From an uncultured Azospirillum sp. (GTDB lineage: Bacteria > Pseudomonadota > Alphaproteobacteria > RF32 > CAG-239), in contig CANDEX010000014.1 in the NCBI GenBank assembly GCA_947383875.1, forward strand, positions 1-27,833: a stretch of 27,833 nt of DNA, read 5' to 3'. The translations under genes were made by a program, and so were the position numbers. Below the pieces are notes generated by a model. That model saw only the letters and a program-made list of their open reading frames with translations, was not told where the DNA came from and ran no database searches. Shown here piece by piece: positions 15,235 to 18,702 of the stretch. How positions within the stretch are numbered: position 1 is the stretch's first letter; each line of letters begins with the position of its first letter.

Positions 15235-15262
15235 TTGAAATTTAAATTCAAATTGCTATGGT
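15235..15262 (+). promoter_or_regulatory. candidate promoter of typA
   Basis: TTGAAA (15235-15240) and TATGGT (15257-15262) are spaced by 16 bases. A start near 15269 would give a leader of about 220 bases before typA. Confidence 0.45.
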
Positions 15263-15331
15263 AAAGCAAATTTAATGCGACAAAAGCAAACACTTTTAAT
15301 TATGTCATGCTTGGCAGAGACTTATAAGCAG

Positions 15332-15365
15332 ACGAGATAATTAAAATTGCGACATGACAACCGTT
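15332..15365 (+). repeat. 34-bp direct repeat, copy 1
   Basis: Bases 15332-15365 are identical over 34 bases to 15438-15471 (offset 106). The unit begins ACGAGATAATTAAAATTGCG. Copy 1 forms the 3' arm of the first leader hairpin. Confidence 0.95.
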
Positions 15366-15437
15366 ACCACACTCCGTTTTCTTTCATAAACGGATGTGTT
15401 GGAAGGAATTTTAATTTCGACGTGTACAAATGGGTAC

Positions 15438-15471
15438 ACGAGATAATTAAAATTGCGACATGACAACCGTT
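15438..15471 (+). repeat. 34-bp direct repeat, copy 2
   Basis: Second exact copy of the leader repeat. It ends two bases before the AGGAAAG ribosome site of typA and forms the 3' arm of the second hairpin, so its folding could affect access of ribosomes to typA. Confidence 0.95.
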
Positions 15472-15488
15472 TAGGAAAGAAAAAAAGA

Positions 15489-17309
15489 ATGAGTATGAGA
15501 AATATCGCCATCATCGCCCACGTTGACCACGGCAAAACCACTCTGGTAGATGGCTTGTTAAGACAAAGCGGAACTTTCCGTGACAATCAAAAAGTAGCTG
15601 AATGCGTGATGGACAGCAATGACTTGGAACGTGAACGCGGCATTACGATTCTGTCAAAGTGCACATCAGTCAATTGGAACGGAACCCATATTAATATCGT
15701 TGACACCCCGGGCCACGCTGACTTTGGCGGCGAAGTTGAACGCATCTTGTCTATGGTAGACGGTGTTGTCTTGTTAGTTGATTCTTCCGAAGGCCCTATG
15801 CCTCAAACAAAATTCGTACTAGGAAAAGCATTAAAACTCGGCTTAAAACCGATTGTCGTCATTAATAAAGCGGATAAAGCTGATGCTCGCGTTGATGAAG
15901 TCTTGGATGAAATTTTTGACTTGTTTGTCAGCCTGAATGCCAATGATGAACAATTAGACTTTCCGGTACTTTATGCTTCCGGCAGAAACGGCTGGGCCGT
16001 TAAGGAAATGACAGATGAAAAGAAAGATTTAAGCGCACTGTTTGAATTAATTCTGGATTATGTCCCCGAACCGGCTTGCGATATTAACGCACCTTTCTCC
16101 ATGTTAGCGACCACTTTGGAAGCAAACAAATTCATCGGTCGTCTGCTAACCGGAAAAATCCAAACAGGAACGCTGCACGTTAATGACACGGTTAAAATTC
16201 TTAACGGTGAAAATCAAGAACTGGAACGTGTCCGCATCAGTAAAATCTTAGCTTACCGCGGCTTAGAACGTGTCGCCTTGGAAGAAGCCCAAGCCGGAGA
16301 TATCGTTGCTGTCGCAGGTGTTGTTAAAGGCACTGTTGCCGATACTATTTGTGCATTAGATGTCAACCAGTCAATTAAGGCTCAACCGATTGATCCGCCG
16401 ACATTGGCAATGACATTCTCCATCAACGATTCCCCCATAGCCGGACGCGAAGGCGATAAGGTTACATCTCGGATGATTTGGGACAGATTATGTAAAGAGG
16501 CGGAGGGTAATATTGCCCTGAAAATTTCACGCACGGATTCTTCTGATGCCTTTGAAGTTGCCGGACGAGGTGAACTTCAGCTGGGTGTTTTGATTGAAAC
16601 TATGCGGCGTGAAGGATTTGAATTATCCATCTCCCGCCCCCGTGTTTTAATGAAGCGCGGTGAAGACGGACAGCTGCTGGAACCTTTTGAAGAAGTCGTC
16701 GTTGACGTTGATGAAGAATTTTCCGGCAGTGTCGTTGAGAAACTCGGTCAACGCAAAGCAGAACTGACAGAAATGATTCCGTCTCAGATTGGCAACAAAG
16801 TCCGCTTAATTTTTAATGCGCCATCCCGCGGCCTTATCGGTTATCACTCTGAATTTTTAACCGACACACGCGGCACCGGTATCATGAACCGCATTTTCAA
16901 AGACTATGAACCTTATAAAGGCGAAATTGACAGCCGCCGCAACGGTGTTCTGATTTCATCAGAAAACGGCACGGCAATCGCTTACTCCCTGTGGAAGCTG
17001 CAAGACCGCGGCCCAATGTTCATTGACGCGAACGTTCCGGTATATATTGGTATGATTATCGGCGAACACACCAAATCTAACGATTTGGAAGTTAATCCGA
17101 CAAAATCTAAACAATTAACCAATATTCGTGCCGCCGGAAAAGATGAAGCCATCGACCTGATTCCGCCGCGGAAATTATCATTGGAACAAGCTTTGTCTTA
17201 CATCCAAGAAGATGAACTTTTGGAAGTAACGCCTAAAACCCTGCGCTTACGCAAACGAATTCTTGATCCGATTGCCCGTAAACGCGCTAAACCCGAAATT
17301 ATGGCTTAA
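15489..17309 (+). CDS. typA: TypA/BipA ribosome-associated GTPase
   Basis: A translational GTPase of 606 residues, the normal family length. It binds 70S ribosomes and helps large-subunit assembly and stress or cold adaptation in species studied. G-domain motifs are clear: HVDHGKTT (11-18), ERGITI (49-54), DTPGH (72-76) and NKAD (126-129). They are followed by the EF-G-like beta-barrel and domains III and V ([20 protein letters not shown] begins the domain III signature), then the TypA-specific C-terminal domain ([20 protein letters not shown]). The frame extends upstream to a TTG at 15453, inside the direct repeat. The ATG at 15489-15491 is preferred because it follows AGGAAAG (15473-15479) by 9 bases and gives the standard start. 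A strong terminator follows the stop. Confidence 0.97.
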
Positions 17310-17383: not shown

Positions 17384-17439
17384 AAACTTGGATAATAAGC
17401 ATAATACGATGTTAATTTTTTCCAACACATAAAGACAAA

Positions 17440-17563
17440 TTAAAACTGTTATATGAGTCAAATAGTAAGAATTAAGAGAGAAAAAAGCGCAGCGTACATA
17501 GAAGTACGTGAGCATTTTTTCTACTTGCCAATTATGTACTAGTTGACCATAGAACAGTTTTAA
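17440..17563. repeat. 124-bp imperfect palindrome (MITE-like) at the rodA stop
   Basis: Ends are perfect 11-bp inverted repeats, TTAAAACTGTT (17440-17450) and AACAGTTTTAA (17553-17563). The complementarity continues inward with a few mismatches and 1-2-base gaps through TATG-GTCAA-TAGTA, AATT and the A-run followed by GC. It ends at a central CGTAC (17493-17497) / GTACG (17504-17508) hairpin. The whole can fold into one long stem. The outermost TA on each side could be a TA target duplication, as made by IS630/Tc1-type elements, but this is inference. The right end supplies the TAA stop of rodA. No open frame lies inside. Only one copy exists in this window. Confidence 0.7.
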
Positions 17564-18702
17564 TCTTTGCCGATTTGAATGTTTCTATTTATATGTACCG
17601 ACAAGATAATACCAAAAGAAGCCATGATGGACAACATAACAGTACCGCCGTAAGAAATCAAAGGCAGAGGAATACCGACAACAGGAATTAGTCCCAAAAC
17701 CATTGAAATATTAATGAAAACATACATAAAATAGTTTGTGGCTAAGCCGATGGCAACCAACTTACCAAAGTAACTGGTGCTTTTAAGAGCAAAAGAATAA
17801 CTATATGCCAAAATAAGAAAGTTCAAAACAACAATCAAAACGGCTCCCATCATTCCAAACTCTTCGGAAAGCATCGTAAAAATAAAATCCGTATGTTTTT
17901 CAGGCAAAAAATTAAGATGACTTTGTGTCCCTTTGAGAAAACCTTTACCGAAAACACCGCCGGACCCTAAGGCAATTTTTGACTGAATAATATGATAACC
18001 GGACCCTAAGGGATCTCGCTCGGGATCAAGAAATGTCAGCACACGATTCCGTTGATAATCATGCAGAAAATGCCAAGCAACAGGCATAGAAACTAAACCA
18101 CCGGCAATAACAATACCGAATTTCCATAACTGCACACCAACGGCGAAAAAGATGGCTCCGGTTGTAAATAACAACATCAAAGCCGTACCCAAATCCGGCT
18201 GCAAAATAATCAATGCCGCAGGGAAAAGTGCCATCAACAGCGGCGGAATAATTCCTTTATTACTTTCAATCGTTTGCAAAGACGATGTATGAAAATAACG
18301 CGCCAAAACCAAAACCATAGCGATTTTCATTAATTCAGAAGGCTGAAGTTTAAAAAAACCCAAATTAATCCAACGCTGAGCTCCCATACCGATATGCCCT
18401 GTAATTTCCACCACAATCAGCAGCAAAAGCGTTCCGAAATAAAAGACATAAGCAAAACGCATCAACAGCCTAATATCAGTTAGAGCCAATAAAATCATCA
18501 GTACAAAACCAACGGCAAAACGGGCTAATTGGTTCAACGCCCAAGGCGACCAATTTCCGTTGGCTGCCGAATAAAGCATAATAATGCCGATAGAAGCCAG
18601 CATAATAATCAGCATTAAATACGAAAAACTCAGATTCGCCAACTTTTCGCGTATTGTCAGGGTCTGATTCCGAAATGTCGTTTCATAAGGTTTATACATC
18701 AT
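17560..18702 (-). CDS. rodA: RodA (MrdB), SEDS peptidoglycan polymerase
   Basis: A SEDS-family glycosyltransferase of 380 residues with about ten membrane segments. It polymerises lipid II into glycan strands for side-wall growth together with PBP2. Family motifs are visible: QPSELMKIAMV (120-130), LQPDLGTA (168-174), DPERDPLGSGYHIIQSKIA (226-244), the LPEKHTDFIF loop with the essential acidic residue D272, and the C-terminal LPLISYGGT. The ATG overlaps the mrdA stop (ATGA) and has GAGG 8 bases upstream, so it is translationally coupled. The coding sequence ends with GKD and a TAA that lies inside a terminal repeat of the 17440-17563 palindrome; the length is normal, so little or nothing has been lost. 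Confidence 0.97.
   Translation of the reverse strand: MMYKPYETTFRNQTLTIREKLANLSFSYLMLIIMLASIGIIMLYSAANGNWSPWALNQLARFAVGFVLMILLALTDIRLLMRFAYVFYFGTLLLLIVVEITGHIGMGAQRWINLGFFKLQPSELMKIAMVLVLARYFHTSSLQTIESNKGIIPPLLMALFPAALIILQPDLGTALMLLFTTGAIFFAVGVQLWKFGIVIAGGLVSMPVAWHFLHDYQRNRVLTFLDPERDPLGSGYHIIQSKIALGSGGVFGKGFLKGTQSHLNFLPEKHTDFIFTMLSEEFGMMGAVLIVVLNFLILAYSYSFALKSTSYFGKLVAIGLATNYFMYVFINISMVLGLIPVVGIPLPLISYGGTVMLSIMASFGIILSVHINRNIQIGKD

Follow-up and report, generated by a model that had tools for sequence, protein, structure and literature searches.

A tandem RNA element whose two folds compete around the typA ribosome-binding site belongs to a dispersed palindrome family of an alphaproteobacterial order

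The typA Leader and Its Surroundings

The window analyzed here was the whole 27,833-nt stretch of contig CANDEX010000014.1 from an uncultured Azospirillum sp. (GCA_947383875.1). By Pfam, the leader is preceded by a PfkB-type kinase gene, typA/bipA (BipA_C and GTP_EFTU) occupies 15489–17309 on the plus strand, and a RodA/FtsW-type gene follows on the minus strand. A typA promoter was predicted by motif match only at 15235–15262 (+), with TTGAAA (−35) and TATGGT (−10) separated by 16 bp, and transcription would start at about 15269. The leader from 15269 to 15500 folded to −62 kcal/mol, compared with a shuffled mean of −38.0 (z = −6.44; 0 of 200 shuffles were as low).

A 34-bp sequence is repeated exactly at 15332–15365 and 15438–15471, 106 bp apart, as originally predicted. 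Its 32-bp core matched twice in the window with up to three mismatches and had no match in 100 shuffles. The original prediction described two hairpin modules, in which each copy of the repeat supplied a 3′ arm, and a third hairpin between them. Its pairings were correct, including the A/T stem of module 1 (15294–15303 with 15337–15346), but the repeated object is a unit of ~105–110 nt and not a hairpin 3′ arm. Module 2 and the third hairpin together form one complete unit (unit 2), with the third hairpin as its element H1, and module 1 is a decayed unit (unit 1). The two copies have only the final 34 bp in common. The strongest inverted repeat of the leader pairs 15377–15397 with 15463–15483 (21 nt, 90%) and buries the Shine-Dalgarno sequence (SD); it was absent from the predicted hairpins.

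Unit 1 (15290–15365, +) contains the P2-like stem named above, an unrelated inner hairpin where P3 was expected, the conserved GAG and the tail ACATGACAACCGTT. The covariance model of the typA units (R1) found no match to it at E up to 1. Unit 2 was matched by R1 at 15368–15476 (+; 96.8 bits), and it was itself in the R1 training set. It begins with H1 (15367–15402, +), an anti-sequestor hairpin composed of a 5′ arm (15367–15379), the loop TCTTTCAT (15380–15387) and a 3′ arm (15388–15402). The anti-SD TTTTCTTTCAT (15377–15387, +) faces the SD region AGGAAAGAAAA (15473–15483, +). The switch strand, or mid (15388–15397, +), can pair either with the 5′ arm of H1 or with 15463–15472 of the tail ATGACAACCGTTT (15460–15472, +), which is conserved in the unit alignments A1 and A5 described below. 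Between H1 and the tail, P2 (15407–15416/15445–15454) encloses an internal loop and P3 (15422–15427/15434–15439), spanning 15407–15454 (+).

The Unit in Other typA Leaders

The relatives were the best 80 of 420 TypA matches. They came from MAG or uncultured contigs with titles such as Alphaproteobacteria, proteobacterium, Rhodospirillales and 'Azospirillum sp.', and ruminant gut samples were named in some. Part of their typA leaders contained the unit, comprising H1 with a pyrimidine-rich loop, a TGGAAG-type joint, a long P2, an inner P3 (GTGTAC/GTACAC), and then the tail ATGACGACCATTT and the SD. In alphaproteobacterial typA leaders, one to five tandem copies were found between the promoter and the ATG. 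The alignment A1, with 33 units from 21 loci and the window, gave 25 pairs by RNAalifold, with double changes in 19.

R1 found units scoring 40 bits or more in the typA leaders of 23 of the 80 loci and in the window, with 21 of these 23 loci and the window in its training set, and with several leaders shortened by contig ends. Minus-strand echoes of true units, which arise from the palindromic unit, were excluded from the counts. Matches above 80 bits were present in 28 of 153 genomes of the order of genome G001, of which 20 hold training loci and eight were new (G036, G063, G065, G075, G078, G087, G089, and G110). In seven of these eight genomes outside the training set, typA lay directly downstream of the units. 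The eighth, G036 (L204), had a contig end within an array of at least three units, with a typA-type promoter upstream. The longest arrays had five units (G087) and four units (G110).

Of the 77 typA leaders with 150 nt or more (three shorter ones were excluded), 64 contained a loose promoter motif, and in some of the 64 it lay at a plainly non-homologous place (e.g., L008, L063, L067, L076, L078, and L079). In unit-less leaders the distance from the motif to the ATG was 133 in L001–L003 and 48–172 where the motif was homologous. It was ~176–192 with one unit, 273–305 with two, and 389 with three (L019). The distance from these predicted promoters to the ATG increased by ~105 nt for each added unit.

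Rfam gave no match in the window at the gathering score, and its four matches at E up to 1 on the typA loci L016, L026, and L038 did not fall on the unit. Identity with a known Rfam riboswitch or leader was rejected, as the unit had no match in the window, in these three typA loci or in 11 loci with dispersed copies.

Competing Pairings Around the SD

The pairings were examined in alignment A5, which holds one terminal unit from each of 29 leaders; L034, L028, and L005 were left out because they were diverged or cut by a contig end. In the stem that hides the SD (OFF; anti-SD with SD, and mid with tail), 97.8% of 551 cells were paired. Double changes occurred in 10 of its 19 pairs, four of them in the SD:anti-SD helix, and this was reached in 0 of 500 shuffles, which, like the permutations below, leave the relatedness among leaders in. 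Doubly changed cells numbered 69, compared with a shuffled mean of 19.6 and at most nine in slid versions. Further pair types showed no excess over the shuffles (147 of 500 reached the observed value). In H1, which belongs to the alternative fold (ON), 84.1% of 195 cells were paired and five of seven pairs had double changes (30 of 500 shuffles reached five). Its doubly changed cells numbered 15, against 5.6 by shuffling (0 of 500 reached it), and one slid version of H1 equaled the true one with 15. Again, further pair types were not in excess in H1 (201 of 500).

Partners from the same leader also fitted each other better than swapped partners. The SD region covaried with the anti-SD, with 102 for own partners compared with 92.3 ± 2.3 for swapped ones (11 distinct types), and 0 of 20,000 permutations were as good. 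The same result (0 of 20,000 each) was obtained from the own-partner duplex energies of H1 (25 types) and of mid with tail (19 types). Among the 29 units, which include six SD variants, 24 had 10 of 11 places paired between the loop and the SD, and the remaining five had 7–9. In the 12 multi-unit leaders, terminal units paired at 9.8 of 11 places and the 14 internal units at 8.8, with copy 1 of L043 anchored one base off in this comparison. Nine of the 14 internal units reached 10 of 11 SD-complementary places, like most terminal ones; thus, the terminal copy is not alone in having the anti-SD.

Two conserved and mutually exclusive pairings, one of which hides the SD, were therefore found within the limits of covariation and permutation, which supports a translational switch. 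The covariation and the upstream promoter motif support the claim that typA is preceded by a duplicated, cis-acting RNA element whose folds exclude each other. The alternative folds were first proposed for TGTCATG (15303–15309) and CATGACA (15353–15359), which lie at these positions. That pairing belongs to the decayed unit 1, and TGTCATG has no counterpart at the matching position in the aligned units. The pair of folds conserved across species is instead H1 against its 3′ arm with the tail.

Constrained folding at 37°C placed OFF below ON in 28 of the 29 leaders, the exception being L017. From 11.2 kcal/mol at 10°C, the mean gap narrowed to 8.0 at 37°C and 6.8 at 45°C. Because OFF is very stable in most leaders, switching at equilibrium would need a strong input. 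The fully free minimum-energy fold was sometimes below the constrained OFF fold, and hence the two-state picture is simplified.

A Dispersed Palindrome Family

The unit extends to a wider family of bulged palindromes of ~110 nt. R1 matched every one of the 25 genomes searched at E up to 1, with many matches lying away from typA, and in 22 genomes E was 1.4e-6 or lower. The alignment A3 of 27 dispersed copies, which excludes L138 and weaker fetched copies, formed a 30-pair hairpin with double changes in 22 pairs and an outer stem specific to each locus. A second model, R2, was built from dispersed copies only, with the typA units excluded. R2 matched 33 of 35 genomes at E up to 1e-3 and 122 of the 153 genomes of the order at 1e-6. 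In a sample of the class, nine of 385 genomes matched at 1e-6, of which four were of the same order (G001, G005, G008, and G022) and five were outside its 153 genomes (G241, G246, G258, G402, and G425; 40–78 bits). The genome-wide R1 and R2 searches of the order and the class sample used stricter filters, by which weak matches were lost.

R2 scored the typA units of other genomes at 37–96 bits. Since this model, trained without typA units, matched unit 2 of the window at 15373–15486 (+) with 68.8 bits (E = 1.7e-15), the typA units and the dispersed copies are one family. The typA unit of the window is part of a genome-wide repeat family that was invisible to the original prediction.

At 1e-6, R2 matched 16 times in G030 and 15 times in G085 (judged by score only), and the five G030 copies examined had similar outer parts. 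These five copies (L159–L163) have the flank ATCCAAGAGTTTG in common and lie after a terminator-like hairpin, and several adjoin a partial second copy, as if recently amplified. Near-identical copies in G018 (L141, L142, L145, L180, and L181) follow genes ending in ...TNCTDYCDFCGG, which suggests that they were copied together with the gene ends.

The window itself probably contains one diverged member of the family, weak by score, as a long inverted repeat in the interval from typA to the rodA-like gene (17439–17564, no strand assigned). Its outer stem (17439–17450/17553–17564) extends across the stop codon (17560–17562) of the rodA-like gene, which is on the minus strand. R1 gave a weak match at 17442–17541 (21.8 bits, E = 0.1), R2 gave none at E up to 1e-4, and the minus-strand fold had a z of −7.69.

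Genomic Context and Sense of the Copies

In 38 of 99 distinct contexts, an opposite-strand ORF of at least 100 aa had its stop codon within 16 nt of one fixed end of the copy, and in three of 99 a same-strand ORF terminated at the opposite end. Positions drawn at random from these loci gave 3.1 and 2.3%, respectively. The 100-aa cut-off misses small genes such as rpmD. With ORFs of at least 45 aa and a wider margin, a stop was near in 64 of 105 rows (51 distinct C-termini), some of these perhaps being chance ORFs. Twenty proteins, hand-chosen at strong-match loci and not a census, were named by NCBIfam: L1, L30, L25, EF-Tu (a fragment), S15, L9, L10, L15, PNPase, YebC/PmpR, PPDK, FabF, FabG, KdsB, thioredoxin, LpxD, the AmpG family, sodium-translocating pyrophosphatase and, below the cut-off, a MacB-like permease; one of the 20 had no NCBIfam match. 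By eye, the rpmD|rplO site recurs in nine genomes, where the outer stems differ yet stay paired.

Copies were also found within the permuted tmRNA gene of two genomes, three in L128 and four by the model (five by eye) in L155. They lie at L128:1779–2420 (−) and L155:1421–2314 (+), apparently in the intervening segment. ARAGORN detected no tmRNA in L128, L155, or L183, and Rfam found it in L128 and L155; L183, which covers the same place as L128, was left out of the Rfam run. At the gathering score, Rfam found only tmRNA on the 11 dispersed loci. In G005, all seven fetched loci other than tmRNA and typA had copies in frame before a prepilin-type MVEMLG motif, with putative start codons. At least seven such prepilin-like ORFs were seen there (L156, L158, and L168–L172), and the region before MVEMLG is built of in-frame palindromic copies.

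At typA the modeled strand is the transcribed strand, and the mRNA at stop codons contains the complementary one. In the transcribed sense, the typA units had 42 wobble pairs against 18 A-C mismatches (26 against 14 once thinned at 85% identity), a count that the sense of the model may favor. In a comparison biased by a model built in the typA-like sense, 74 thinned dispersed copies gave 121:39 in the typA-like sense, or 83:36 minus one column, and the 29 thinned copies from the 40 best gave 33:13, or 17:13 minus the same column. A hand count of the 27 A3 copies was about even outside this column. A few apical loops were compared by eye for trans pairing between typA units and opposite-strand 3′ UTR copies, and no match was found among them.

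Patchy Presence at typA

On a TypA tree of 85 rows, the unit was present in 30 leaders (L005, L028, and L034 were labeled as unit-bearing), absent in 54 and unlabeled in one; the ratio of 30:54 should not be read as a frequency, as seven of the 30 entered the tree on the strength of carrying the unit. The pattern implied 17 changes, at least seven of them on starred branches, on a tree in which gain and loss look alike. The lack of both the pairing and the repeat in related genomes had been named beforehand as evidence against the element. This lack was found in the closest relatives (L001–L003, 94–96% TypA), and 29 other leaders have the unit. The unit is dispensable, because the nearest relatives of the window lack it at typA, and it is either old in the order or re-acquired. 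A tail-like remnant, seen by eye in some unit-less leaders (L008, L009, L023, and L037), points to loss there. As regards the empty site expected of a MITE, the unit-less leaders were by eye too divergent for one to be defined. In L001–L003, a different inverted repeat around CCCGTGAGG...TTTCACGGG lies ~100 nt upstream of typA and is possibly another control element.

Proposed Mechanism and Alternatives

The typA leader of the window contains a real, conserved and often tandem structured RNA from a repeat family, with two competing folds at the SD. We consider it probable that such leaders control translation as RNAs built from one to five tandem units of ~105–110 nt and work by strand exchange around the SD; regulation of typA by them is likely from the sequence comparisons. 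In the terminal unit, the 3′ arm of H1 would have two possible partners. When it pairs with the upstream 5′ arm (ON), the tail and the SD would be free and typA translated. When it pairs with the tail (OFF), the H1 loop would be brought onto the SD, and a long bulged hairpin would block initiation. Since H1 is made first in transcription, a new mRNA should start in ON, and it would then refold to the more stable OFF unless something intervenes. Candidates for this are initiating ribosomes, a protein or small molecule on the conserved P2/P3 internal loops, and RNase III cutting the long hairpin. The unit would descend from, or have common ancestry with, the palindromic repeat family spread in the order.

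A selfish palindromic repeat may merely be tolerated in the typA leader, its arms being kept complementary by replicative template-switching 'correction' and not by selection on the RNA; we regard this as unlikely, at an appreciable level. It agrees with a family found at many unrelated places, including the seven in-frame G005 loci and the tmRNA of two genomes, with the 16 copies in G030 (the five fetched ones being alike) and the 15 in G085 (by score only), with an outer stem that is locus-specific yet self-complementary in the aligned copies, and with the patchy presence at typA. However, template switching should erase mismatched internal loops, which are conserved in A1, A3, and A5. It also leaves the excess of wobble pairs over A-C mismatches at typA in the transcribed sense (42:18), which the sense of the model may favor, and the own-partner pairing of H1, the second use of the same strand, to be accounted for.

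The long hairpin may instead serve mainly as an RNase III substrate, whose cleavage would expose the SD or determine how stable the mRNA is; the copies in 3′ UTRs and tmRNA would then be processing sites as well. The long bulged helices do lie in transcribed places, past stop codons, between r-protein genes and inside the tmRNA gene, and at several loci a copy stands before a terminator by eye. RNase III cuts the Correia/NEMIS repeats of Neisseria, according to excerpts of PMC2229807 and PMC10969869. An enzyme that cuts double-stranded RNA would not need conserved internal loops or H1, and we find this explanation rather improbable.

Tandem ligand-sensing aptamers, in which a metabolite or protein binds each unit and tandem copies sharpen the response, would fit the arrays of up to five units and the residues that are invariant within and near the internal loops. 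This is a clearly improbable reading, as Rfam has no match on the unit in the window and three typA loci and finds only tmRNA on the dispersed loci, and as the loops recur in stop-codon copies, where the mRNA carries the opposite strand and sensing is not expected. An RNA thermosensor, which the original prediction suggested and for which the importance of E. coli BipA at 20°C (PMC6962249, in excerpt) might speak, is hardly credible and was rejected on the folding energies, because OFF is favored more in the cold, the opposite of cold induction, the SD helix is too stable to melt in the physiological range as a simple heat sensor, and the gut or rumen samples named for some relatives are not expected to be cold.

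Returning to translational control by strand exchange, a broader and tentative reading, held with low confidence, is that the palindrome family was domesticated at several levels in this order. These would be fixed-orientation hairpins on the stop codons of housekeeping genes, ribosomal ones included, a tmRNA spacer, a prepilin leader peptide and a tandem, copy-number-variable switch at typA, and a shared factor that recognizes their conserved internal loops could link them into a translation regulon. If the switch is true, it would clearly exemplify a dispersed palindromic repeat turned into a tandem RNA switch on a conserved translational GTPase, and dispersed copies are still present for comparison with the tamed typA copies. 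The system would be a testable one for how repeat RNAs get tamed, and an uncultured alphaproteobacterial order gains a new RNA family.

Comparison with Known Systems

A full-text literature search described neither a typA/bipA leader switch nor such a repeat in this order in the titles and abstract openings among the matches listed. Stable stem-loops in bacteria favor the 50 bp past stop codons according to an excerpt of one further paper. Rickettsia palindromic elements (RPEs) are inserted in frame in genes and also inside tmRNA and M1 RNA (excerpts of PMC2229807 and PMC10969869). The family here resembles these palindromes of ~105–150 bp, which are dispersed in an alphaproteobacterial group, form long stem-loops, and lie in frame in proteins and inside tmRNA (same excerpts), and it likewise occurs in frame in ORFs (the seven G005 loci) and in tmRNA (two genomes). 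It differs from RPEs, by description only, in its hosts, its conserved asymmetric internal loops, its stop-codon-anchored orientation, and its tandem 5′-leader copy with SD pairing.

YPAL/RU-2, ERIC/RU-1, and Correia/NEMIS are also small stem-loop repeats, of which some share a transcript with their neighbors and affect mRNA stability or processing, and YPAL is found in company with upstream genes (excerpts of PMC2229807 and PMC10969869). A leader switch is not described for those repeats in the same excerpts. The family here also differs from them in keeping orthologous places across species, for example rpmD|rplO.

REP elements are palindromes often found 3′ of genes. The elements here are much longer, and RAYT/Y1_Tnp (PF01797) was found in only four of 12 genomes. 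Mobilization by RAYT in the manner of REP was rejected, since PF01797 was absent in eight of the 12, including G005, G010, and G017 with ~20 or more copies each.

In translational riboswitches and r-protein leaders, the strand that sequesters the SD can instead pair with a partner upstream, in an anti-SD/anti-anti-SD exchange. The SD-sequestering strand of the typA leader also has such an alternative upstream partner. The typA unit differs from those leaders in having no Rfam match and no known ligand, and in being common to a dispersed repeat.
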